Source: an uncultured Phycisphaerales bacterium
Lineage (GTDB): Bacteria; Planctomycetota; Phycisphaerae; Tepidisphaerales; Tepidisphaeraceae
Direction of reading: 5' to 3'
DNA length: 64,000 bases
Assembly (NCBI GenBank): GCA_903871935.1
Contig: CAIQIQ010000050.1
Location: forward strand, 62,001-126,000
A program made the position numbers and the translations under genes. Positions 19,978 through 33,434 of the stretch are shown one piece after another. The notes beneath the pieces are model-generated. The model saw nothing but the letters and a program-made list of their open reading frames with translations, was not told where the DNA came from and did no database searches. Position 1 is the first letter of the stretch; each line of letters begins with the position of its first letter.

Positions 19978-21516
19978 ATGGCCACCTTACGCCAACGTCG
20001 ATTCGTGCCGGTTTCGGTTTCGTTGCGTGATCTGCTCGGCGAGCAGTATGTCTCGGCTGTGGCACGGGGGCATGCCCTGCTGCATGGCAGCGATGAAGAT
20101 GCTGCCATGGAACTGGCCTGCCGGGCTGTTGATCTGCTCCCGGAATCGTTCCAGCAGCAACAAGTGAGGCTCTTGGAGAAGGTGGGTCAGCAGGTTACCG
20201 ATCCACTGACGCACTCGGCCGGTGGGGCGACGACCGCGAAGTACGCTGCTGCCACACGCAAGGCGATGGCTCCTGTGTCCACGGCGGGCATGTTTCGCCT
20301 TGCCGAGGATGGACACTTGCACGTGATCACCAAGGCCGAACACTATCATGTGTCGCTGGGCCACGGATTCCCCGGCTGGCGGCTGCTGGAGCACGCGCGG
20401 CAACTGGGCATCCCCAATGCCACGCATAACAATACCCGCGGCCACGTTACCCGATTGCTTGAAGAGCAGTTGGTGGCGGCCGCCGGGGCGGCCAGCGGCG
20501 GGCCGGATCGCGTGCTGAACCTTGAGACCGGTAGCCTTGCCCTGGAAGCCGCGATCAAGATTGTCCTGGCTCGCTTCTATCGCGCCCAGGCAGACTCTCC
20601 CGAGCCGAAGTATGAGGGTAGGGTGCCTGTGCTGCTGGTCATGGCTGACGAGGAGGGCGATATCACGGCCGGCTACCACGGCACCACGCTCCTTGCCCAA
20701 ACGATGCGCGGCATGTGGCCGGCCATCCGCCAGTCGGCGGAGAAACACGGGATCTATCGCGTTCGCGCCATCCGCCCGAATAATATCGCCGACCTGGAGC
20801 GTGTCTTCCGCGAGAACGATTCCGGCCACACCAAGATCGCCGGATTCTTCTTTGAATTGATTCTGATGAACTATGGCGCTACCACGCTCAGCTCTGAATT
20901 CTTGCATCGAATGCAGGCGCTGTGCGATCAGCACGATGTGCCGATGATCATCGATGAGATTCAGACCGGATTGTGGAGTCCGAAGCTGTTCATGTTCCGT
21001 GAGTACGGCCTAAAGCCGGCGATGATCGGGTTGGGCAAGGGATTTCCTGGCGGTGAGTATGCCGCGTCACGCCTGATCTTCTGTGGCGATCTGGATGTGC
21101 TGCCGCAGTTCGGCGCACTGGTGACCAATGGACAGGAGGAGATCGCTTCGCTGGCATACCTGGTTGCGATGCGATGGGCTCTGGCCAATGCCGAGGTCAC
21201 CAGCGCGATCGGCGAATACTTCGAAACTCGCATCCGCGAGGTTGCGGATGGACATCGTTCGATTGTGAAAGGCGTCGAGGGCCGGCGGCAGTTGCTCGGC
21301 ATCCATTTCCACGATGTATCTTCGGCACGGGCGTTCACCAAGCAGGCTGAGGCGATGGGGCTTGATATCAGCGTGCAAACGTACAAGAGCTCCATTCCGC
21401 CGGCCGCCCTGACCAAGCTTCCGCTGACGGCTCCGCCTGAGGCGGTGGATCTGGTCGTGGACAAGCTCAGCGCCGCCTTGGTCGCGGTTGAGAAGCAGGC
21501 ATCGGGAGTTGCATGA
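19978..21516 (+). CDS. Class III (fold type I) PLP-dependent aminotransferase
   Basis: A 512-residue PLP enzyme of the ornithine/GSA-aminotransferase class. The cofactor aspartate is in PMIIDEIQTGLWSP and the Schiff-base lysine in MIGLGKGFPGGEYAAS, the expected order and spacing. The N-terminal 130 residues extend beyond the core and are unusual for the class. The reaction would be transamination of an amino sugar, keto sugar or similar substrate in this locus; the partner is not predictable from sequence. The stop overlaps the ATG of the DeoR gene (ATGA), so both are probably co-transcribed. Confidence 0.85.
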   Translation: MATLRQRRFVPVSVSLRDLLGEQYVSAVARGHALLHGSDEDAAMELACRAVDLLPESFQQQQVRLLEKVGQQVTDPLTHSAGGATTAKYAAATRKAMAPVSTAGMFRLAEDGHLHVITKAEHYHVSLGHGFPGWRLLEHARQLGIPNATHNNTRGHVTRLLEEQLVAAAGAASGGPDRVLNLETGSLALEAAIKIVLARFYRAQADSPEPKYEGRVPVLLVMADEEGDITAGYHGTTLLAQTMRGMWPAIRQSAEKHGIYRVRAIRPNNIADLERVFRENDSGHTKIAGFFFELILMNYGATTLSSEFLHRMQALCDQHDVPMIIDEIQTGLWSPKLFMFREYGLKPAMIGLGKGFPGGEYAASRLIFCGDLDVLPQFGALVTNGQEEIASLAYLVAMRWALANAEVTSAIGEYFETRIREVADGHRSIVKGVEGRRQLLGIHFHDVSSARAFTKQAEAMGLDISVQTYKSSIPPAALTKLPLTAPPEAVDLVVDKLSAALVAVEKQASGVA

Positions 21517-22277
21517 ACCGACGGCAGGCAGACATTCTCGAGCTACTGGCCACGCGGGGCGAGTTGGAAGTGGCCGCGATGGCAAGGCGCTTTCGCGTGA
21601 ACCAGGCGACGGTTCGTCGCGATTTTCAGTATCTGGAGGATGAGGGGCACCTGGTTCGGTCGCATGGGGCGGCCATTTCCTCGCCGGCCGCCCTGGCACA
21701 GCTTGCATTTGTGCGCAAGGGGCAGAAGAACGAACGACAGAAGCGCGCGATTGGCCGGGCTGTGGCGGCAGAGATCAAGCCCGGGATGGTTGTGGCATTG
21801 GATACCGGGACGACAGCGCTGGAGGTGGCGCGGGCCATCACCAATATCCCCGGCATCAAGGTGCTGACCACATCGCTTCCGATCGCGGCTGTGCTCCATG
21901 CTCAGCAGAACATCGAGGTCATCCTGATGGGCGGTACGGTACGCCGGAATGACCCGGATCTGTCTGGGGCGCTGACCGAGGAGAATCTCCGCCGGTTTCG
22001 ATCCGATATCGCGGTCCTGGGTGCGGATGCTGCGGGGAAAGACGGCTTGTTCACCACCGATATGGCGATTGCTCGCACTTCCCAGGCAATGATGTCCGGC
22101 GCGCGCCGCCGCGTGGTCGCGGTCGACGCGACGAAGTTCGCAGCACGCGGGCTGTTTCGCTATGCTCCGTGGGATGATGTCGCGGCCGTCTATACCGATG
22201 CCAGCGTTACGGCATCCGATCGCGCGTGGCTGAAGAAACTCGCTATTGAGGTACGCTTCGTGGCGAAGGAGACATAG
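21513..22277 (+). CDS. DeoR-family transcriptional regulator
   Basis: A 254-residue repressor-type regulator. The N-terminal helix-turn-helix reads RQADILELLATRGELEVAAMARRFRVNQATVRRDFQYLEDEGHLVRSHGAA, the DeoR signature. The sensor domain has the phosphosugar-binding DTGTTALEVARAI motif and a LGADAAGKDGLFTTD segment. DeoR proteins respond to phosphorylated sugar intermediates; the neighbouring FGGY kinase would make such a ligand. It probably controls this locus, though I could not identify an operator. Confidence 0.93.
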   Translation: MNRRQADILELLATRGELEVAAMARRFRVNQATVRRDFQYLEDEGHLVRSHGAAISSPAALAQLAFVRKGQKNERQKRAIGRAVAAEIKPGMVVALDTGTTALEVARAITNIPGIKVLTTSLPIAAVLHAQQNIEVILMGGTVRRNDPDLSGALTEENLRRFRSDIAVLGADAAGKDGLFTTDMAIARTSQAMMSGARRRVVAVDATKFAARGLFRYAPWDDVAAVYTDASVTASDRAWLKKLAIEVRFVAKET

Positions 22278-23429
22278 ATGCGTGAGATTGGCATTGGCAT
22301 CATCGGTGGCGGCTTAATGGGGCGCGAATTCGCGTCGGCCGTTTCCCGATGGGGCCATCTGACCGGCCATCCCGTCCGGCCGAGCATCGTCGGCGTCGCC
22401 GACCGGACGCCCGCCGCGCTGGAGTATTTCGCACTGAGCCAACCAAAACCCGCGCAGCTCGTCGCGGATTACCGCGAGCTTCTGAAGAATCCCGCGATCC
22501 ATGCGGTCTATGTCGCCGTTCCCCACGACCTGCATCAGCAGGTGTATAGCGATTGCATCCGCGCGGGCAAACATCTGTTGGGCGAGAAACCATTCGGGAT
22601 CGACCAGGCGGCCAATGTGGCGATCACCAGTGAAGCGAAGAAGCGCCCGGAGCTGATCGTTCGCTGCTGTTCGGAGTTCCCTTACTGGCCCGGGGCGCAG
22701 CGGATCATCTCGATGGTGTGCAAAGGCGAGATGGGACGGATAATTGAGGTGGAATGTGGGCTGCTTCACTCGTCCGATATGGACCCGAAGAAGCCGATCA
22801 ACTGGAAGCGCCGTGTGGCGAACAACGGAGAGTATGGGTGCATGGGCGATCTGGGGATGCACGTGTTACATGTGCCGCTTCGCCTCGGCTGGCAGATCTG
22901 CAACCTGCGGGCGATTCTGAGCAAGGTGTTTACGCAGCGTCCCGGATCGGCCGGCAGCAGCGAGATGGTTCCCTGCGAGACATGGGATAATGCCACGCTC
23001 TTGTGCGAGGCGGCCACTGAGTTCGGCGACCGCTTCCCGCTGATCGCGAAAATGATGCGTATCGCCCCCGGTGAAACCAACACGTGGTATCTGAGCGTCA
23101 AGGGAACCGCTGTCTCCGCCCGCTTCAGCACGCGGCAGCCGCGTTCGCTGTTTACTCTGGCCTATACGCCGGGGAAGCCGCAGGCGTGGCAGGAAGAGCA
23201 GCTCGGATACGAGACGATCTACCAGACCATCACCGGCAGTATCTTCGAGTTTGGATTTGGCGACACGATGCTGCAGATGATCGCGGCGTTCTGCGACCAG
23301 ATTGACAAGGGTCCTCAGGCGCAGCTCCCGTTTGGGCTCGCCACGCTCGAAGAGGCGGCTGGCACTCACGCGGTCTTCACCGCGGCATTGCGCTCGCAAC
23401 AGTCGGCGCAGACTGTGCAGGTGCAGTGA
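22278..23429 (+). CDS. Gfo/Idh/MocA-family oxidoreductase
   Basis: NAD(P)-dependent dehydrogenase of 383 residues. It has the N-terminal Rossmann motif IGIIGGGLMGREFA, the AVYVAVPHDLHQQ region and the family's EKPFG motif (GEKPFGIDQAA), which carries the catalytic-region lysine. It starts directly after the DeoR stop and overlaps the start of the kinase gene. Members oxidise sugars, inositols or their derivatives; this one probably acts on the locus substrate, unidentified. Confidence 0.92.
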   Translation: MREIGIGIIGGGLMGREFASAVSRWGHLTGHPVRPSIVGVADRTPAALEYFALSQPKPAQLVADYRELLKNPAIHAVYVAVPHDLHQQVYSDCIRAGKHLLGEKPFGIDQAANVAITSEAKKRPELIVRCCSEFPYWPGAQRIISMVCKGEMGRIIEVECGLLHSSDMDPKKPINWKRRVANNGEYGCMGDLGMHVLHVPLRLGWQICNLRAILSKVFTQRPGSAGSSEMVPCETWDNATLLCEAATEFGDRFPLIAKMMRIAPGETNTWYLSVKGTAVSARFSTRQPRSLFTLAYTPGKPQAWQEEQLGYETIYQTITGSIFEFGFGDTMLQMIAAFCDQIDKGPQAQLPFGLATLEEAAGTHAVFTAALRSQQSAQTVQVQ

Positions 23430-24922
23430 TGGCCATCCTCATCGGCATCGACCTCGGCACTACCGTCCTGAAGGCCTGCGCCTTCGACCAGAAGACCGGT
23501 AAGGCGGTAGCCCAGGCGAGTTGCCGCCTTGAACCTGATGTGGACAACGCCGGCAAGCGTGAACTCGACACAACGCAAGTCATTCGAGCTCTGAAGCGCA
23601 CCTTCGCGGAAATCCGCGCCGAATTGGGCCAGAGATGGCGCGGTGTCGCTGGCCTTGGTCTGGCGGCCCAGGGCGGCAGTTGCATCCTTGCTGACCGCTC
23701 CACCGGCAAGGTTCGCACTCCGATGATCCTCTGGAACGACATGCGCTTCCTTCCCCATTGCCGGGAAGTGGAAGCAAGGGTCACTACCGATTTCTGGCAG
23801 CAACTCTCCTGGCGCGATGAGCCGGGGGCAGGTCTTGCTCGGATCCTGTGGCTTCGCGCAACTCGCCCGGCATTGCTCAAAGGCAATGTCATCTATGCCG
23901 GCGCCGGAGATTGGCTGTATTTCATGCTTACCGGTCAGTGGCGGCAGGATGCCGGCAACGCGCTCCAGGTCGGCTGCTACAACGTGGCCAAGGGTGATCT
24001 TGATCCTGCCCCGATGGCGCTGATCGGGGCCGATCTTTCGCTCGTCTCCCCAATGCGCAAAGACCATGAGACCCACACGCTGACTGCCGCCGGCGCCAAG
24101 CTGCTTGGACTTAGCCCTGGCATCCCGGTTGCTGGTCCGTATATGGATCACGAGGCTGGTTATCTCGCCGGCGTCGGCGCAGCACCGGAGGGCGCCCGTC
24201 CGCTCCAGTTCTCTCTTGGCACCGCCTGGGTAGGCAACTTCGTTCTTCCTGAAACCGCCAACTGGACCAGCCCGTTTCAGCTTGTTCTACCCTCACCGGC
24301 CGGGTCAGGATACATGGTCTGTCAGCCGCTTCTAACCGGCAACGTCACCTGGGACTGGGCATGGAAGAGCCTGCTCGACCCCGGGATCAAGTTCTCGGCG
24401 ATCGATCGCATCTTCTCCGATTCCCTGTTTCCCTCCGATGGCCTGTGCGCGTTGCCATGGCTTAACAGGCCCAATCCACTCACGCCGGATACTCTCGGTG
24501 GTGGCAGCTTCTTCGGCGTCAGTGCCACCACCACGCGAGAGGATCTGATGCGTGCGATGGCACTGGCGATGGTTTGTGAGACGCGTCGAGTGTTTGAGGA
24601 GGTCATCGCGGCCGGCCAGGTCAGCGTTGCAGTTCTCTCTGGCGGCGCGAGCAAGGGGCGGCATTTCCAGCAGCTTCTCTCGACCGCCATGCATCCACTG
24701 CCTATCCGCATGATGGGTGATGAGGACACCGCCGGCCCACGCGGTGCTCTCTATGGCCTGCACAAGCCGATCATACGCACTCGCTCTACGGCGCTGCCGC
24801 GTGCCGGCGCGAAGATCCAAGCCACGTTTGACCGACGCTATGACCAGTATCTGAAGCTCTATGATCGGCTCTACGCGCACTTGCCTGTAGGCGGAGCCGT
24901 GCACTTTACGAGGAAACCATGA
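23429..24922 (+). CDS. FGGY-family carbohydrate kinase
   Basis: ATP-dependent sugar or polyol kinase, 497 residues. The phosphate-1 motif IGIDLGTTVLKACAFDQKTG is at the N-terminus and the adenosine motif VLSGGASKGRHFQQLLS near residue 400. A GTG at 23426 precedes ATG 23429; I choose ATG, which overlaps the previous stop as TGATG. The FGGY family includes xylulokinase, fuculokinase and rhamnulokinase; which sugar it uses is not clear. It would supply the phosphorylated intermediate for the following steps and possibly the DeoR ligand. Confidence 0.9.
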   Translation: MAILIGIDLGTTVLKACAFDQKTGKAVAQASCRLEPDVDNAGKRELDTTQVIRALKRTFAEIRAELGQRWRGVAGLGLAAQGGSCILADRSTGKVRTPMILWNDMRFLPHCREVEARVTTDFWQQLSWRDEPGAGLARILWLRATRPALLKGNVIYAGAGDWLYFMLTGQWRQDAGNALQVGCYNVAKGDLDPAPMALIGADLSLVSPMRKDHETHTLTAAGAKLLGLSPGIPVAGPYMDHEAGYLAGVGAAPEGARPLQFSLGTAWVGNFVLPETANWTSPFQLVLPSPAGSGYMVCQPLLTGNVTWDWAWKSLLDPGIKFSAIDRIFSDSLFPSDGLCALPWLNRPNPLTPDTLGGGSFFGVSATTTREDLMRAMALAMVCETRRVFEEVIAAGQVSVAVLSGGASKGRHFQQLLSTAMHPLPIRMMGDEDTAGPRGALYGLHKPIIRTRSTALPRAGAKIQATFDRRYDQYLKLYDRLYAHLPVGGAVHFTRKP

Positions 24923-26304
24923 AACCCTCCGCCGGACTTCTTCCGCTGTATCTTGAACTCTATGATGACCGTCTGCCGGAAATGCGCAAGGTGCTCGACC
25001 CGTTCGCAGCGCAGGTTGCCGCCGGTCTGCAGCAGCAGGGCATTACCATCGTACAGACGCCAGTGGTCCGCACGCGCCAGGAAGCCGAGCACGCCCTGCA
25101 ACTCATGGAGAAGGGCAACGTTGATGCGGTTGTCACGCTGCATCTAGCGTATTCACCGTCGCTGGTTTCGGCCGAGTTGCTCGCTCGGACGTCGCTGCCC
25201 GTGATCCTCTGCGATACCACGATGGACTACAGTTTCGACCAGTCCACCGACATCAATCGCCTGCTCTACAACCACGGGATTCACGGTGTGCAGGATCTGG
25301 CCAGCGTGCTGCGGCGGATGGGCAAACACTTCGAGATTGCCGCCGGCCATCTGACACAGTCCAATGTGCTGCAGCGCACGGCGCAATTGGTCCGCGCGGC
25401 GGCCGCGGCGAAGTCACTGCGCAGCACCCGCGCCCTGCGCGTGGGCGATGCCTTTGTCGGCATGGGCGATTTTTCGGTGCCCGAAGAGCAATTGGCCCGG
25501 CTGCTGGGGATCAAGGTGGACCAGATTGACCCCACCGATCTGGTTGGATTTGCCAAGCGTCTCAGCGCTGCCGAACTTGACGCGGAGATCGCTCGCGACC
25601 GCGAACTCTATCGCGTTACCGCATCTGAAGGGGTGCATCGCCGCTCGGTGCGCGTCTCGCTCGCGTTGCGTAAGTGCCTGGAAGAGGGCGGCTACAGTGC
25701 CTTCAGCATGAACTTCGGGTGCTTCAACAGCAGGCAGGAGCCGATAGATACGGTACCGTTCCTGGAGGCCTCCAAGGCCATGTCGCGTGGCATCGGCTAT
25801 GCGGGCGAGGGCGATGTACTCACCGCTTCGCTGGTTGGCGCTCTGGCCCGCAGTTTCGGTGACACTACGTTCACCGAGATCTTCTGCCCGGACTGGAAGG
25901 GCAACACGCTGTTCCTCTCGCATATGGGCGAGATCAACCCGGCTCTGTCGGCCGGCAAGGCGCTGTTGTGTGAGAAGCCATATTCGCTGAGCGATACAAA
26001 CAATCCGGCCATTCTTGCTGCGGCGTGCAGGCCCGGCCCGGCCGTTCTGGTGAACCTCACGCCTGGCCCGGATGCCTCCTTCGACCTGCTTCTGGCGCCG
26101 GTCGAGGTCCTCGATGACTCGACGCACCCCTCCATGCAGGAGCAGGTACGCACTTGGATTCGCCCTGGCCGGCCGCTGGGCGACTTCCTGGAAACCTATT
26201 CGCGCCACGGCGGTACCCATCACAGCGCCATGGTGCTCAATGGAAACGTAGAAGCACTCAAAGCCTTTGCCGCCTTTGTTGGCTTTGGCTGTCACGTGAT
26301 CTGA
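24919..26304 (+). CDS. L-fucose/L-arabinose isomerase-like protein
   Basis: A 461-residue protein resembling the FucI/AraA fold. It has an N-terminal segment of Rossmann-like strands (GLLPLYLELYDD, VDAVVTLHLAYSPS, LPVILCDTTMDY), then conserved glutamate-containing regions (LEASKAMSRGIGYAGEGDVLTASLVG, FTEIFCPDWKGNTLFLSHMGE) of the type that bind the catalytic metal. These enzymes interconvert aldoses and ketoses. It overlaps the kinase stop by 4 bases (ATGA). Kinase plus isomerase is the standard pair for pentose or deoxyhexose breakdown. Confidence 0.8.
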   Translation: MKPSAGLLPLYLELYDDRLPEMRKVLDPFAAQVAAGLQQQGITIVQTPVVRTRQEAEHALQLMEKGNVDAVVTLHLAYSPSLVSAELLARTSLPVILCDTTMDYSFDQSTDINRLLYNHGIHGVQDLASVLRRMGKHFEIAAGHLTQSNVLQRTAQLVRAAAAAKSLRSTRALRVGDAFVGMGDFSVPEEQLARLLGIKVDQIDPTDLVGFAKRLSAAELDAEIARDRELYRVTASEGVHRRSVRVSLALRKCLEEGGYSAFSMNFGCFNSRQEPIDTVPFLEASKAMSRGIGYAGEGDVLTASLVGALARSFGDTTFTEIFCPDWKGNTLFLSHMGEINPALSAGKALLCEKPYSLSDTNNPAILAAACRPGPAVLVNLTPGPDASFDLLLAPVEVLDDSTHPSMQEQVRTWIRPGRPLGDFLETYSRHGGTHHSAMVLNGNVEALKAFAAFVGFGCHVI

Positions 26305-26316
26305 TAAGGAGTATTC

Positions 26317-27975
26317 ATGGCCACAGACCAGATCAGACTCGGCATCGTCGGCGCCTGCGGCCGCGGTGCTTCTTTCAAGTCCGCCTGTGATGCAATGCCC
26401 CAGGTGAGGATCCAGGCGGTCTGCGATACCAACGCGGAGGAACTGCCCAAGGCCAAGGATCGCCTGGGCGCTACGGATCAATACACCAGCTACGACGACA
26501 TGCTTGAGCGCGGCAATCTCGATGCGGTGATCATCGGCACGCCGATGCCCCTGCATGTGCCACAGGCGATTGCCGCCATCCAACGGGGTATCCACGTTTT
26601 GAGCGAAGTGCCGGCGGGCGTCTCGATCGACGAGTGCCGTGATCTGACCATCGCCTGCCGAAAGAGCAAGGCGGTCTACATGATGGCCGAGAACTACGCT
26701 TATATCCGCTCCAATGCTCTGGTTCGCGAACTGGTGAGGCGAGGCCTGTTTGGCGAGACCTACTTCGGTGAGGCTGAGTACCTGCACGAACTCAAGGGAC
26801 TCAACGAGATCACCAAGTGGCGGCGCAAGTGGCAGACGGGTATCAATGGCAATACCTATCCGACGCACTCCCTTGGCCCGCTGCTCCAGTGGATGCCGGG
26901 TGACCGCGTGACGCATGTCTGTCACGGCGGATCGGGGCACCACTACCGTGACCCGCGCGGCGATGAATATGAGCAGGAGGATTCCGTCCTAACCCTCTGT
27001 CGCATGCAGAAAGGGGGAATGGTCAAGCTTCGCATCGACATGCTCTCGGATCGCCCCCATGGGATGCACAATTATCAGCTCCAAGGAACGGATGGCTGCT
27101 ATGAGTCGGCGCGGGCGCATGGCGAACCCAACCGAATCTGGCTTCGCGCTTTGTCCAAAGACCCAAACCAATGGATGCGCCTGGAGGAATTAGAGGAGAA
27201 GTTCCTTCCCGATGACTGGAAGAACGCCTCGGAGATCGCCCGCAGGGCCGGGCACGGCGGTGGCGACTACTTTGAAGTGATCGACTTCGTCGATGCCATC
27301 GCAGGAAAACGGCCGACCGATATCGGCATTGATGTCGCCATGGACATGACGCTCCCTGGTCTGTGCAGCCAAATCTCCGCGAGCGAGAACGGGCGGTGGG
27401 TCGAGGTGCCGGATTCGCGGAAGTGGACGGCCGACTACATGCCGCCATGCGGGCAGCTTCGCATGCTCTTTGACATCAATCGGAGTGCTCCGGAGGTGAA
27501 GTTGCCGCCGGATTATCGTTTGCGCCAGCTTACCCGGGCGGACTTTGGGAAATACCGTCAACTCATGGACGGCGCAGGCTTTACCGGCTGGGATGATACG
27601 GTGATTGGCAAGGCGTTTGAGCGTTCCTTGCCGAACATGTACTTCGTGATCGAGCATGTTCCGACCGGCGATCTTGTTGCGACGGCGTTTGCCGATCACG
27701 ATCCCAGAGAGCAACTGCCCAACGCCGGCAGCCTCCAATATGTTGCCGGTGATGCTCGCCACAAAGGCAAGGGCCTGGGCTACGCCGTCTGCGCTGCCGT
27801 TACCCGCGGGCTGCTGGAGCGTGGATACGAGCGAATCCTCCTGACCACCGACGACTGGCGCCTGCCGGCCATCGCGACCTACCTCAAGCTTGGCTACGTC
27901 CCGGACTTCTATTTGCCCGATATGCAGGCGCGTTGGGACAAGGTGATGGGGGAACTGGCCGGAACACGTAAGTGA
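26317..27975 (+). CDS. Gfo/Idh/MocA oxidoreductase fused to a GNAT acetyltransferase domain
   Basis: A 552-residue two-domain protein. Residues 1 to about 395 form an NAD(P)-dependent dehydrogenase: LGIVGACGRGA at the nucleotide site and SEVPAG in place of the usual EKP. From residue about 399 (YRLRQLTRADFGKYRQLMD) to the end is a GNAT domain with the acetyl-CoA motif RHKGKGLGYAVCAA and the C-terminal strand-loop LPAIATYLKLGYVPDFY. GNATs move acetyl groups from acetyl-CoA to amines. Joining the two suggests oxidation and N-acylation (or its recognition) in one chain. The fusion is one uninterrupted frame. Start ATG 26317 follows AAGGAG. Confidence 0.85.
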   Translation: MATDQIRLGIVGACGRGASFKSACDAMPQVRIQAVCDTNAEELPKAKDRLGATDQYTSYDDMLERGNLDAVIIGTPMPLHVPQAIAAIQRGIHVLSEVPAGVSIDECRDLTIACRKSKAVYMMAENYAYIRSNALVRELVRRGLFGETYFGEAEYLHELKGLNEITKWRRKWQTGINGNTYPTHSLGPLLQWMPGDRVTHVCHGGSGHHYRDPRGDEYEQEDSVLTLCRMQKGGMVKLRIDMLSDRPHGMHNYQLQGTDGCYESARAHGEPNRIWLRALSKDPNQWMRLEELEEKFLPDDWKNASEIARRAGHGGGDYFEVIDFVDAIAGKRPTDIGIDVAMDMTLPGLCSQISASENGRWVEVPDSRKWTADYMPPCGQLRMLFDINRSAPEVKLPPDYRLRQLTRADFGKYRQLMDGAGFTGWDDTVIGKAFERSLPNMYFVIEHVPTGDLVATAFADHDPREQLPNAGSLQYVAGDARHKGKGLGYAVCAAVTRGLLERGYERILLTTDDWRLPAIATYLKLGYVPDFYLPDMQARWDKVMGELAGTRK

Positions 27976-28002
27976 GCGAGACGTTGCCAGAAGGTGCCAC
28001 AT

Positions 28003-30252
28003 ATGACTTGGAAACAGATCCCCGCAAATCAGCCATACAATCGTCGAATCTGGGAGGAGGAACTTGCTTCGTTCTTGCCGGAGCGGATCTTTGATGTCCA
28101 TTCCCACATCCTGGATGATGGGACCATCCCGGGCTCGGGCACCTTTTCCTGTGCCGGCCATCCGATGCGGGCGTATGGTGCACAAGAGCTCCTTGCGGAC
28201 TACGCGGCCGCTCTTCCGGGGAAGCATGTACAGGCGATGTGCTTTGGTTTTCCTGACCCCAGCTACGATTTCGATCGAAACAACAACTACGTCGCCACGG
28301 TTTGCGACAAGCAGAAGCTGTTCCCTCTTCGCCTGTTTGACCCGCAGAACGATACGCCCGAGCTTCTTCGCAAAGATCTGGCGGCCGGCCGGTTTGTGGG
28401 ACTGAAGCCGTATCCTGATTACGTCCGCGGCGATTTGTCTCAAGCCACAATTCACCAGATGCTGCCAGACTGGGGAATGGAGATCGCCAATGAGTTTGGC
28501 AGCATTATCATGCTGCATATTCCCCGGCCGCAGCGTCTGGCCGATCCGCTGAATCAGCAGCAGCTCATTGACATCTGTAGTCGCTATCCGCGTGCCCGGG
28601 TCATCCTGGCCCACATTGGCCGGGCGTATTTCCTGAAGAACGCCGTGGGGAATATCGCGCCGCTGGCGCATCTGCCCAACCTGTACGTTGATCTGGCGAT
28701 GGTCAACCACTGGGAGGTCATGGAGCACCTCTTTAGCATCTTTCCGCGTGATCGTATCCTGTATGGCTCGGACATGCCCATTGCCATCGCTCCCGGTAAG
28801 AGCGTCGAGATCAACGACCAGTACACTTACGTCACTCCGGTTCCCTGGAAGCTTTCGATCTCGGATGATCACGGGAAACTTCAGTTCACTTCGTTCCTGT
28901 ACGAGGAGCTGCGCGCGATCAAACACGCAGTGGAGCGCATGAAGCTCCCACGATCATTCGTCGAGGATCTGTTCTACGGCAACGCACAGCGACTGCTTGC
29001 CCGCGATGAGGCTCCGCACTCGCGCGGCTCGGGCGCTCGTTCTTCTGAGCGATGGGCCCGTAGACTGCATGATGTGATGCCTTGGGGTTCCAGTACCTGC
29101 TCGAAAGCGGCGCGGCTGATGCCGGAGGAGCCCGGTGTCATCGTTCGCGGGAAGGGGTGTCGAGTGTGGGATGCCGATGGACGGGAGTACATCGACTTCC
29201 GCAATTCGCTTGGGCCCGTGACGCTGGGGTATGGCTTTGGCCCGGTGGACGAGGCGATTCGCTGCCAACTGGAACAGGGCATTGCTTTTGGTCATCCGCA
29301 TCCCCTGGAGTGCGAAGTGGCGGAGATGATCCGCGATGCGGTTCCCTCAGCCCAGAAGGTGCGGTTCCTGAAAACCGGAGGCGAAGCGGTTGCGGCATGC
29401 ATCCGCCTTGCGCGCCATGCTACCGGACGCCAGCATGTGATCCAGATCGGCTACAACGGGTGGCTTAATAGCCTTTCTGCTGGCGGACGGGTGCTGCCTG
29501 GACGCTCGGCTGCCGATGCTCCGCCGGGAGTACCGCAATGCCTGTCCGAACTTCACCATGCGTGCCCGTGGAACGATATTGAATCCGTTCGCCTGGTCAT
29601 GGAGCGCTTCTCGGGCGATGTCGCGGCCGTCGTCGTCGCCGCCGACTATGCCGACATCGCGTCCGGCAAAGACTTTTACCCGGCCGTTCGCCGACTGACC
29701 CGGGAGCAGGGCACTCTGCTCGTGCTCGACGAGATCGTCACCGGTTATCGCATCGCCATTGGCGGGGTGCAGGAGTACTTCGGAATCAGTCCTGATCTCT
29801 CCATCTTTGCCAAGGGCATCGCCAATGGGATGCCGCTGTCGGCGTATGCTGGCCGGGCCGACGTGATGGACAAGCTCAAAGAGGTGGTCATCACGTCCAC
29901 GCTTGGCGGCGAGACGCTGTCGCTGGCGGCTGCAAAGGCAGCTCTGGAGTTCTATCGGACCAATGATGTCGTTGGCTACCTCTGGCGGATGGGTGAGCGG
30001 ATGTGGAAGGGGTTCAACAATCTCGCCGCCCGGCACAAGCTGCCGATTCAGGCAAGGGGATTCTGGCCGTGCCCGCAAATCGTCTTTGGACCGGGGAGTG
30101 CGGAAGATATTCCCGACCGGTTCTTCCGCGCTGCGTATCGGCGCGGCGTGTCGCTGTATAACGTGTCCTACGTCAACTTCAGCCACACCGAGGCGGATGT
30201 CGATGAAGCTCTGGACCGGTTGGACCAGGCTTGTGGTGATGTGAAGAAATAA
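28003..30252 (+). CDS. Amidohydrolase fused to a class III aminotransferase
   Basis: A 749-residue fusion. Residues about 25-333 form an amidohydrolase-2-type barrel with metal-site motifs IFDVHSH, IMLHIPRP, VILAHIGRAY and ILYGSDMP. After a 20-residue linker, residues about 355-749 form a GSA-aminomutase-like PLP enzyme with cofactor Asp576 in LVLDEIVTGYR and Schiff-base Lys604 in IFAKGIANGMPLSA. Both halves keep their key residues. I start at ATG 28003, 8 bases after AGAAGG, not the in-frame GTG 27994. Coupling of a hydrolase or lactonase to a transaminase in one chain is unusual and implies consecutive steps. Confidence 0.85.
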   Translation: MTWKQIPANQPYNRRIWEEELASFLPERIFDVHSHILDDGTIPGSGTFSCAGHPMRAYGAQELLADYAAALPGKHVQAMCFGFPDPSYDFDRNNNYVATVCDKQKLFPLRLFDPQNDTPELLRKDLAAGRFVGLKPYPDYVRGDLSQATIHQMLPDWGMEIANEFGSIIMLHIPRPQRLADPLNQQQLIDICSRYPRARVILAHIGRAYFLKNAVGNIAPLAHLPNLYVDLAMVNHWEVMEHLFSIFPRDRILYGSDMPIAIAPGKSVEINDQYTYVTPVPWKLSISDDHGKLQFTSFLYEELRAIKHAVERMKLPRSFVEDLFYGNAQRLLARDEAPHSRGSGARSSERWARRLHDVMPWGSSTCSKAARLMPEEPGVIVRGKGCRVWDADGREYIDFRNSLGPVTLGYGFGPVDEAIRCQLEQGIAFGHPHPLECEVAEMIRDAVPSAQKVRFLKTGGEAVAACIRLARHATGRQHVIQIGYNGWLNSLSAGGRVLPGRSAADAPPGVPQCLSELHHACPWNDIESVRLVMERFSGDVAAVVVAADYADIASGKDFYPAVRRLTREQGTLLVLDEIVTGYRIAIGGVQEYFGISPDLSIFAKGIANGMPLSAYAGRADVMDKLKEVVITSTLGGETLSLAAAKAALEFYRTNDVVGYLWRMGERMWKGFNNLAARHKLPIQARGFWPCPQIVFGPGSAEDIPDRFFRAAYRRGVSLYNVSYVNFSHTEADVDEALDRLDQACGDVKK

Positions 30253-30268: not shown

Positions 30269-31045
30269 ATGATCATTGACCTGCATGTGCACCACTGCCT
30301 TAGTGCCGAACCGCGGACGGACTTCGCGGCGATGGAACGCCTCAAGCGCGTAGCCAAGGCTGTCGGGATCTCTCACGTATGCCTGCTGGGCAATGTCTTC
30401 CGGTACGGCATCCGCGCCAGTCGCGAGGGAATCCGCAAGATCAACGACTCGACGATCGCCCTGGTGCGTCGCGATCCAGGATTCGTCAGCGGCTTTTGTT
30501 TCATCAACCCCACGTTGCCGCGGGCCGTCATACGCGAGGAGGTGCAGCGGTGTGTGCGGGCGGGGCTGTCCGGGGTCAAGCTTGAGATTGACCTCAACGC
30601 CAGAGACCGACGGATGCGGCACTTGATGGAGGCGGCCGCGGATCTGGATGTGCCGGTCCTGCACCATGCATGGTACAAGTCGCACGAGAAGTATCCGCAC
30701 GAGTCTGATCCATCGGATATCGCCGACCTGGCACGCCGATTCCCTGCCTGCAGGATCATCATGGCGCATGTCGTGGCGGCCGGGGTGCGGGGCGTGCTGG
30801 ATGTTGCCGAATGCAAGAACGTCATGGTTGATACCTCGGGATCCCAGCCGGTGGCGGGGATGGTCGAATATGCGGTGCGGATGCTGGGAGCAGATCGCGT
30901 CGTGTTCGGCAGCGATGTCTGCGGGCGGGATTTCTCCTGCCAGCTTGGCAAGGTGCTGGGGGCCGAACTGAAGGCATCGGATCGTCGCAAGGTGTTGTAT
31001 GACAATGCCCGGAAAGTACTGAAGCTGGAAGGGGGCAAGCGATGA
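30269..31045 (+). CDS. Amidohydrolase family protein
   Basis: A 258-residue amidohydrolase-2-like barrel. Metal ligands are suggested by MIIDLHVHHC at the N-terminus, PVLHHAWYKS near the middle, IIMAHVV and VVFGSDVCGRDF. Such proteins act as decarboxylases or lactonases as well as hydrolases. It is shorter than the 300 or so residues usual for the family. The start follows the upstream gene by 16 bases, and the stop overlaps the next start (ATGA), indicating co-expression. Confidence 0.8.
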   Translation: MIIDLHVHHCLSAEPRTDFAAMERLKRVAKAVGISHVCLLGNVFRYGIRASREGIRKINDSTIALVRRDPGFVSGFCFINPTLPRAVIREEVQRCVRAGLSGVKLEIDLNARDRRMRHLMEAAADLDVPVLHHAWYKSHEKYPHESDPSDIADLARRFPACRIIMAHVVAAGVRGVLDVAECKNVMVDTSGSQPVAGMVEYAVRMLGADRVVFGSDVCGRDFSCQLGKVLGAELKASDRRKVLYDNARKVLKLEGGKR

Positions 31046-31809
31046 TCATCGACGTGAACGCATCCTTGGGCAACTGGCCATTCCAGAGATTTGCCCTGCG
31101 GACGGCCGGGCAATTGGACCGGCATTTTGCGGGCCTGGGGATCGACCAGGCGTGGGTCTCGTCGGCCGACGCGATTCTTTGTCCCGATATCGATGCTTGC
31201 GATGAGGAGCTTGCAAAGCATCTGCGGACGTATCCGAGGCTGAGGATGGTGCCGACGATTAATCCGGTGCTGGCCAACTGGGCGAAGAGCCTGGACAAGT
31301 GGGCGGGGCGCGGGGTGCATGCCGTAAAGGTTTATCCCAACTACCACCAGTATTCCCTCTCGTCGCCGATGATGTGCGAGGTGGCGAGGCAGGTTGCTTC
31401 GCGGCGCATGGTGCTGCAGGTGCAGATGCGGGTGGAGGATGAGCGGGGGATGTATGCGCCGTTGCGGATCAGCGGCGTGAGCGTGGAGGATGTGGCGAAG
31501 CTGGCACAGAACGTTCCCGAGGCTGCGATCATTGCCCTGTGCCCTTACTATCGCGAGGCGGTGCAGCTTGCGGCGAAGGCCCCGAAGGTGATGGTGGACC
31601 TGTCCTTCATCGAGGCTTGCGATACGGTCAAGACGCTTTTGCGCGATGTGCCGGCCGGCCGGGTGGTCTTTGGATCGCACACGCCATTCCTGTGCACGCG
31701 GGCGGAACTCATGAAGATCGAGGCGGCCAAGGTAACGCAGAGAGAACTGCGACGGATCCGGGAAGCCAACGTCCGCAGCTTGTTCTCTCTATCGGTGGAC
31801 ACCAAGTAA
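31042..31809 (+). CDS. Amidohydrolase-like protein with altered metal site
   Basis: A 255-residue relative of the flanking amidohydrolases, starting MIIDVNASLGNW. The position that should hold the His-x-His metal ligands reads VNASL, and later ligand positions read LQVQMRV and CPYY rather than His. The terminal GSHTPF retains a His instead of the usual GSD(M/T/Y)P aspartate. It may be a non-hydrolytic subunit or a barrel with another activity. It sits between two relatives in the same operon, which supports a structural or accessory role in a complex. Confidence 0.7.
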   Translation: MIIDVNASLGNWPFQRFALRTAGQLDRHFAGLGIDQAWVSSADAILCPDIDACDEELAKHLRTYPRLRMVPTINPVLANWAKSLDKWAGRGVHAVKVYPNYHQYSLSSPMMCEVARQVASRRMVLQVQMRVEDERGMYAPLRISGVSVEDVAKLAQNVPEAAIIALCPYYREAVQLAAKAPKVMVDLSFIEACDTVKTLLRDVPAGRVVFGSHTPFLCTRAELMKIEAAKVTQRELRRIREANVRSLFSLSVDTK

Positions 31810-31818
31810 GGAGAGGCT

Positions 31819-32577
31819 ATGGCCAGCATCAAGTTCTTTGATTCGCATATTCACATTTATCCGGGGAGCGAGGGGCGGTGTACGAAGTTCCTGGAGAGCG
31901 GGCATGTGGATGGGATGAATTTGATCCTGCTTTCATCGGCATATAAGGATGCGGCGAAGCTGAATGGGGAGGGGTTTGCGCTGAAGCGCAAGTTCGGGAA
32001 AATGGTGCAGCTCGCGTATTGGGTGAATATCAATGAGAAGGGGTACATGAGGGTCATGGAGAAGGCGTTTAAGGAACATCCGGAGATCACGGGGGTAAAG
32101 GTTCATCCGCCAGGGGATCGAAAAGAGATCAACGAGAAGAACTACGGGCGTGTGTTTGATTTTGCGAAGGAACGCGACCTGTACATGATCTCGCATACGC
32201 ACCCGATGCCCGGAGCCAATTCCGGAGCGTTCATGCCGGTGATGCAGAAGCGGAAGGAATTGCGATTTATCCTGGGACACTCCTCGCCGATCGAGGAATC
32301 GGTGTTTATGGCGGTGTCGTTTGAGAACTGCTATGTAGAGCCGTCGTGGCTGTCGCACTATCCGCTGATGTTCGACATGATGGGAAGGCTGTTTAAGCAT
32401 AAGAAGATGCTGGTGGGCACTGATGGGCCGATGCGATTTCATCGGTGGGAGGTGGATGGGGTGAAGTCGGATGTGATCGAGGAGGAGATTTCCTGGGCGA
32501 GAAAACACCTGCCGACGATGCGCGAGGTGCAGGCGTATTGCTATGAGAATGCGATGGAGTGTTTCAGGATCAAATAG
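31819..32577 (+). CDS. Amidohydrolase family protein
   Basis: A 252-residue barrel protein of the TatD/amidohydrolase-2 type. It begins KFFDSHIHIYPG (His-x-His ligands), has GVKVHPPGD, MISHTHPMPGA, FILGHSSP and MLVGTDGPM, so the metal site looks intact. ATG 31819 follows GGAGAG. Likely hydrolase, lactonase or deacylase; no substrate evidence. It is the third of three consecutive amidohydrolase genes. Confidence 0.8.
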   Translation: MASIKFFDSHIHIYPGSEGRCTKFLESGHVDGMNLILLSSAYKDAAKLNGEGFALKRKFGKMVQLAYWVNINEKGYMRVMEKAFKEHPEITGVKVHPPGDRKEINEKNYGRVFDFAKERDLYMISHTHPMPGANSGAFMPVMQKRKELRFILGHSSPIEESVFMAVSFENCYVEPSWLSHYPLMFDMMGRLFKHKKMLVGTDGPMRFHRWEVDGVKSDVIEEEISWARKHLPTMREVQAYCYENAMECFRIK

Positions 32578-32600: not shown

Positions 32601-33434
32601 ATGTCGTATGTTGCGCAGCGGAATGTGGTGTGTGTGCAGCCGGATGGGATCGGACTCTTGATGGATGTGTTTGTGCCCACGGTGGCCAATGCGCCGGGGA
32701 AGGGGTATGGGTTGGTGTGTGTGGCGAGTGGTGGATGGACATCGCCGCGGAGAGTGACCGAGGCGCACGAGGCGGCCGGCTACTTCAGGGAGCTGTGCCA
32801 GCGGGGGTTTACGGTGTTCGCGGTGCGTCCGGGGTCGTCATCGGCGTTCACCATTGACCAGATGGTCGCGTATGTGCACATGATGATCCGGGAAATCCGG
32901 GCGCGGGCGAAGGCAGGGGAGTATGCGATCAAGACGAACTGGCTAGGGTTGACGGGAGTGTCGGCCGGGGGACATCTGGCGGCACTGTCGGCGATCCGCG
33001 GGATGGAGAGTGATGCAGCGCAAGAGGGTGCGGCGGTACAGGCGGTGGGGCTGTTGTGTCCGGCCACGGATCTGTTGGATTGGGGCGGGGTGGGCGGGGT
33101 GAAGTATGGGCCGTACCTGAAAGACTGGAAGCTGATCTTCCCTGGCGGCGAGGACGGGAAGACGCAAGAGCAGAAGGAAATGGCCGCGAGAGCGGTATCG
33201 CCGGTGTATCAGGCGAAAGCGGGGCTGCCGCCGTTTTTCATCGCACATGGCGATAAGGATGATGCGGTGCCACTGCCGCATGCGGAAAAGCTGGCGAAGG
33301 CGCTGAGGGAAGTAGACGTGCCGGTGAAGTATGTGGTGATCCCCGGAGGGAACCATGACTGGCCACAACTGATTGGGCAAGTGGGGCCGATGGCGGACTG
33401 GCTGGTGATGCAACTGCCGCCACGCGGCGTCTGA
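32601..33434 (+). CDS. Alpha/beta hydrolase (esterase-like)
   Basis: A 277-residue serine hydrolase. The nucleophile elbow is GVSAGGHLAAL, the oxyanion region SGGWTSP and the catalytic His in GGNHDWPQL; the acid is probably in FFIAHGDKDDAVPL. I use ATG 32601 following GAAGGAAGG, since the Met at 32559 lies within the preceding gene. The last plus-strand gene of the locus, ending 11 bases from the convergent GH20 gene. It may remove an acyl or acetyl ester from the locus substrate. Confidence 0.85.
   Translation: MSYVAQRNVVCVQPDGIGLLMDVFVPTVANAPGKGYGLVCVASGGWTSPRRVTEAHEAAGYFRELCQRGFTVFAVRPGSSSAFTIDQMVAYVHMMIREIRARAKAGEYAIKTNWLGLTGVSAGGHLAALSAIRGMESDAAQEGAAVQAVGLLCPATDLLDWGGVGGVKYGPYLKDWKLIFPGGEDGKTQEQKEMAARAVSPVYQAKAGLPPFFIAHGDKDDAVPLPHAEKLAKALREVDVPVKYVVIPGGNHDWPQLIGQVGPMADWLVMQLPPRGV

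Follow-up and report, generated by a model that had tools for sequence, protein, structure and literature searches.

A candidate bifunctional amidohydrolase–aminotransferase at the junction of two gene modules in a Phycisphaerales bacterium, and a second fusion family with the same domain order

Introduction

Does a reading frame that joins an amidohydrolase (AH) barrel to a class III aminotransferase (AT) encode a genuine two-domain enzyme, and would its two halves act in one pathway? The question is raised by a gene of 749 codons from an uncultured Phycisphaerales bacterium, lying in a 64,000-nucleotide stretch of contig CAIQIQ010000050.1 (positions 62,001 to 126,000), which was analysed as a whole and is here called the window. 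The first-pass annotation of this DNA proposed that a hydrolysis or lactonase step would hand on its product to a transaminase by channelling, and knew of no characterised example; a literature search for the AH-AT fusion or pairing likewise turned up no name, description or relevant paper. The two halves of the protein are referred to below as AH1 and AT, and the features of the locus are collected in Table 1.

The fusion gene and its two domains

The gene runs without internal stop from an ATG at 28003 to the stop codon that ends at 30252. A GTG at 27994 is also a possible start, and the residue encoded by the ATG is the point at which AH1 homologues begin in the alignment. Pfam places Amidohydro_2 (PF04909) at residues 55-332, with 70.9 bits against a cut-off of 26.4, and Aminotran_3 (PF00202) at residues 379-687, with 135.3 bits against 30.5. 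The unbroken frame and the two Pfam domains bear out the earlier claim that both domains are read in one frame.

The amidohydrolase half has its closest relatives, at 51-61% identity, among separate genes of Omnitrophota, Hydrogenedentota, Planctomycetota, Kiritimatiellota and Lentisphaerota. Across 25 AH1 sequences the metal-site residues H33, H35, K135, H172, H204 and D257 are invariant, the first-pass annotation having already described the metal-site histidines as kept, and the alignment together with the AF2 barrel model gives the HxH, His, His and Asp of Amidohydro_2 on a TIM barrel. The same TIM barrel with HxH...K...H...H...D is found in the LigJ hydratase, 2,6-dihydroxybenzoate decarboxylase, pyrone-dicarboxylate lactonase and the COG3618 amidohydrolase, all of Amidohydro_2; these differ from AH1 in sharing just 10-18% identity with it at a TM of about 0.5, and there is no close solved relative. 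A fold search with the AF2 model of AH1 gave matches at the level of the superfamily only, and because hydratases, decarboxylases and lactonases are matched equally, the reaction cannot be named. Amidohydro_2 matches number 37 in the source genome.

The aminotransferase half carries the PLP aspartate D576 and the Schiff-base lysine K604, both of them singled out at first pass and both falling on positions that are invariant in 10 aligned ATs. Its relatives at 49-67% identity are standalone genes, and a search of this half against viral contigs found no relatives. The best solved relatives belong to the glutamate-1-semialdehyde 2,1-aminomutase (HemL) family (3bs8, E 7e-56), with which the PLP residues are shared. 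Identity with HemL itself is rejected on the NCBIfam equivalog cut-offs, the scores being 235.6 against 527.3 bits for TIGR00713 and 254.3 against 486 for PRK06209; a further difference from HemL is that, by Pfam, haem genes are absent from the window operon. GSA-like class III ATs also occur joined to other partners, namely MocA (MocA-AT, locus L084), a cytidylyltransferase (L115 and L141) and radical SAM (AT-radical SAM, L139), fusions that share the kind of AT with the window and differ in the partner domain. Such ATs thus appear to be fusion-prone, which makes a joining by chance more plausible.

An AF2 model of the whole fusion was considered for the packing of the two domains and set aside, the AT half, for which an alignment was absent, being of low confidence (mean pLDDT 66.7, pTM 0.50). 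As judged from its domains and conserved residues, the window gene probably encodes one two-domain enzyme, in which an Amidohydro_2 barrel precedes an aminotransferase of class III that resembles GSA aminomutase.

Table 1. Features of the fusion gene and its neighbours, with positions in the window
Feature	Position	Strand	Basis
AH1-AT fusion gene, 749 aa	28003..30252	+	Single open frame; Pfam Amidohydro_2 and Aminotran_3
AH1 half, residues 1-334, TIM-barrel amidohydrolase	28003..29004	+	51-61% identity to 24 separate genes; AF2 pLDDT 90
Linker, about residues 335-349 (about 15 residues), without in-frame start codon	29005..29049	+	Alignments
AT half, residues 350-749, class III aminotransferase, D576 and K604	29050..30252	+	49-67% identity to separate genes
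AT', second class III aminotransferase, distant subfamily, first gene of the AH1 module	19978..21516	+	Pfam Aminotran_3, 80.1 bits; homologues at 51-57% in eight other AH1 modules
DeoR-family regulator	21513..22277	+	Pfam; kept in AH1 modules
MocA1, GFO/IDH/MocA oxidoreductase	22278..23429	+	Pfam
FGGY sugar kinase	23426..24922	+	Pfam; AH1-module comparison
L-arabinose-isomerase-like (AraA-like) protein	24919..26304	+	Pfam; AH1-module comparison
MocA2-GNAT fusion, oxidoreductase and acetyltransferase	26317..27975	+	Pfam
AH2, Amidohydro_2 protein of the AT module	30269..31045	+	Pfam; adjoins AT in L072, L076 and L078, near AT in L077
AH3, Amidohydro_2-like, AT module	31042..31809	+	Without HxH motif
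AH4, Amidohydro_2 protein	31819..32577	+	Pfam
BD-FAE-type alpha/beta esterase	32604..33434	+	Pfam

Gene context and the two parent modules

Most AH1 relatives share a module with an FGGY kinase and with an AraA-like isomerase; a DeoR regulator, the class III AT' and an SSF transporter are often present as well. The window has both the gene content and the order of this AH1 sugar module (AT', DeoR, FGGY kinase, AraA-like isomerase, AH1), and the order is that of Hydrogenedentota genomes G828 and G830, bar the MocA genes of the window. A literature search on the FGGY/isomerase module yielded nothing relevant. To the right, AT, AH2 and AH3 stand in the order seen at L072 and L076, and the AT relatives of Planctomycetota adjoin the small amidohydrolases AH2 and AH3. 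Since AH1 ends the first module and AT opens the second, upstream of AH2 and AH3, the fusion sits exactly at a module boundary.

Several neighbours have peculiarities of their own. AT' represents a divergent subfamily that is kept with AH1 across several phyla. MocA2-GNAT is a GFO/IDH/MocA oxidoreductase, with a GH109-like C-terminal domain, joined to a GNAT acetyltransferase; in Kiritimatiellota the GNAT is fused to AH1 instead (L018, 380-2032), and at L029 and L085 it is a separate gene. AH3 has DVNASLG where the HxH metal motif is expected and may be without catalytic activity or rely on a different site, and in genome G258 (L079:5442-6974) AH2 and AH3 appear to be fused together.

The first-pass annotation had also suggested looking for homologues as separate genes in the same neighbourhood, and AH and class III AT neighbours do recur. 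In most genomes the closest homologues of the two halves lie in different modules, each of which is found without the other. At L130 an AT is followed 14 nt later by an AH as separate genes; at L074 and L031 the gene immediately after AH1 is a class III AT from a different subfamily, the two overlapping in L074; and at L030 a relative of AT' lies 25 nt before AH1. Class III ATs of other subfamilies occur at 12 of the 26 AH1 loci, several of which are cut by contig ends. Such side-by-side genes fit a functional link, and the repeated pairing supports one between such amidohydrolases and a class III transaminase. The occurrence of the window's own halves in separate modules weakens the claim that AH1 and AT would catalyse successive steps.

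The distribution of the halves over genomes was also considered. Homologues of both AH1 and AT occur together in four of the 68 Hydrogenedentota genomes (hypergeometric P ~0.01, without correction for relatedness), on different contigs and unlinked. The AH1 orthologue is absent from five Planctomycetota genomes with AT and the AT orthologue from twelve AH1 genomes, from which it follows that neither half needs the other. Mutual exclusion of the two halves held for the Planctomycetota and the first AH1 genomes, and was dropped in its strong form as the four Hydrogenedentota have both.

A second fusion family with the same domain order

The same domain order was looked for elsewhere, as the first-pass annotation had recommended, and a second AH-AT fusion family was found, of 775-852 aa and represented in the tree by 22 different sequences (from whole-genome searches, first with the fusion as query and next with one of the matches). 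It is spread over at least seven Planctomycetota families, with many complete single-contig genomes, and includes one Omnitrophota sequence; two further members were seen, by coverage only, in Hydrogenedentota. Among its loci are L116-L122, L096-L111 and L140. It shares with the window protein the two Pfam domains, their order, a similar length and the catalytic residues, and it differs in its identity of only about 28-32% to that protein, in forming a separate clade in both the AT and the AH trees and in having no operon context.

Of the 22 sequences, 21 retain both the metal ligands and the PLP residues, and no conserved gene neighbours were found in the loci examined; the two observations together indicate that the AH and AT domains themselves are the conserved unit. 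With no conserved partner, the neighbourhood of this family was dropped as a clue to function. The one exception in residues (L040/L073; L073:9431-11755) has glycine in place of the metal-ligand aspartate at the position of D257, and its AH half lies on a long branch, which suggests, from the sequence, that the domain is decaying or has been repurposed.

In the AT tree the window AT groups with six standalone ATs (support 100/100), the second family forms another clade (99/95) that includes one standalone member, and 0% of the bootstraps unite all fusions. In the AH tree AH1 of the window falls among 27 standalone AH1 proteins (100/99), while 21 second-family AHs lie elsewhere together with a small number of standalone proteins. 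The AH half of L131, whose history is unsure, is placed separately from the others, at the end of a long branch. Membership of the window fusion in the second family is ruled out by both trees. With the two fusions in different clades, the AH-AT architecture arose at least twice, and on these trees at least two independent fusion events are required.

Proposed function and alternative explanations

The following mechanism is proposed. The last gene of a conserved sugar-catabolic module, AH1, would have fused in frame with AT, which heads the AT-AH2-AH3 module directly downstream, and both active sites of the product appear functional. In a metal-dependent reaction the AH1 barrel may hydrolyse, hydrate or decarboxylate a sugar-acid-like intermediate or open a lactone ring in it, and the AT half may perform a PLP-dependent amino-group exchange at a keto or aldehyde carbon. 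Most probably the two steps would serve one and the same catabolic route, for the breakdown of an amino sugar or a sugar acid, and the tether would supply the two activities in equal amounts and close together. Taken as a whole, a genuine two-domain enzyme formed at the module junction, with both steps in one pathway, is the explanation that we favour with moderate confidence; the channelling of the AH product to the AT half, as first proposed, is a reasonable hypothesis. A wider proposal, namely that Amidohydro_2 proteins and GSA-like class III ATs act one after the other in a pathway so far unrecognised and have been fused by selection at least twice independently to give a new class of bifunctional enzymes, is put forward tentatively, as a possibility that falls somewhat short of probable.

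The joining may instead have been an accident, the AH1 stop and the AT start having been lost as the modules met, so that both domains work in different pathways and the tether has no function. This fits the position of the join exactly at the boundary of modules that are mostly found apart, the fact that the window fusion is a singleton in both parent clades and the presence of AT', already available for the module's own transamination; joins of GSA-like ATs to other partners are, moreover, common. It is, however, opposed by the second lineage, in which the same types of domain, in the same order, have been joined and kept over at least seven families, and by the recurrence of AH and class III AT neighbours as separate genes. 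On balance an accidental origin is regarded as rather unlikely, while deserving serious attention.

A sequencing or assembly error would mean that AH1 and AT are overlapping, translationally coupled genes and that one base is missing near the junction. Overlaps of four bases are indeed found between operon neighbours (21513/21516, 23426/23429, 24919/24922 and 31042/31045), positions 29006-29009 carry an out-of-frame ATGA, where the absence of one base nearby would also yield two overlapping genes, and this particular AH1-AT fusion is seen in one assembly only, a genome of the same genus being without it. Against this, the conserved parts of AH1 and AT, the first ending at about residue 333 and the second beginning with the N-terminal helix at about residue 350, share one frame, and the site is without a homopolymer. 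There is no in-frame ATG, GTG or TTG at residues 313-358, so that AT cannot start separately without losing its N-terminal helix and loss of a stop alone would leave it without a start codon. The junction DNA, moreover, occurs only once in the genome, which counts against a misassembly driven by repeats. An error of this kind seems very improbable. Least probable of all, and hardly to be expected, is that one domain has no catalytic part and serves in assembly or substrate binding, as a scaffold or regulator, a role for which the glycine of the L040/L073 protein might speak and against which stand the ligands and PLP residues kept complete in the window and in 21 of the 22 second-family members.

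Significance

Bifunctional fusion enzymes are a known kind, and the AH-AT pairing found here is without a published description in the literature searched. The broader, independent fusion family is a more useful lead than the window fusion, and the two together provide concrete proteins to express and assay, some of them from complete planctomycete genomes. Planctomycetota, Omnitrophota and Hydrogenedentota are rich in Amidohydro_2 enzymes of unknown function; if the amidohydrolase and the aminotransferase act in sequence, their pairing would point directly to a pathway for sugar acids or amino sugars in these phyla that has yet to be characterised.
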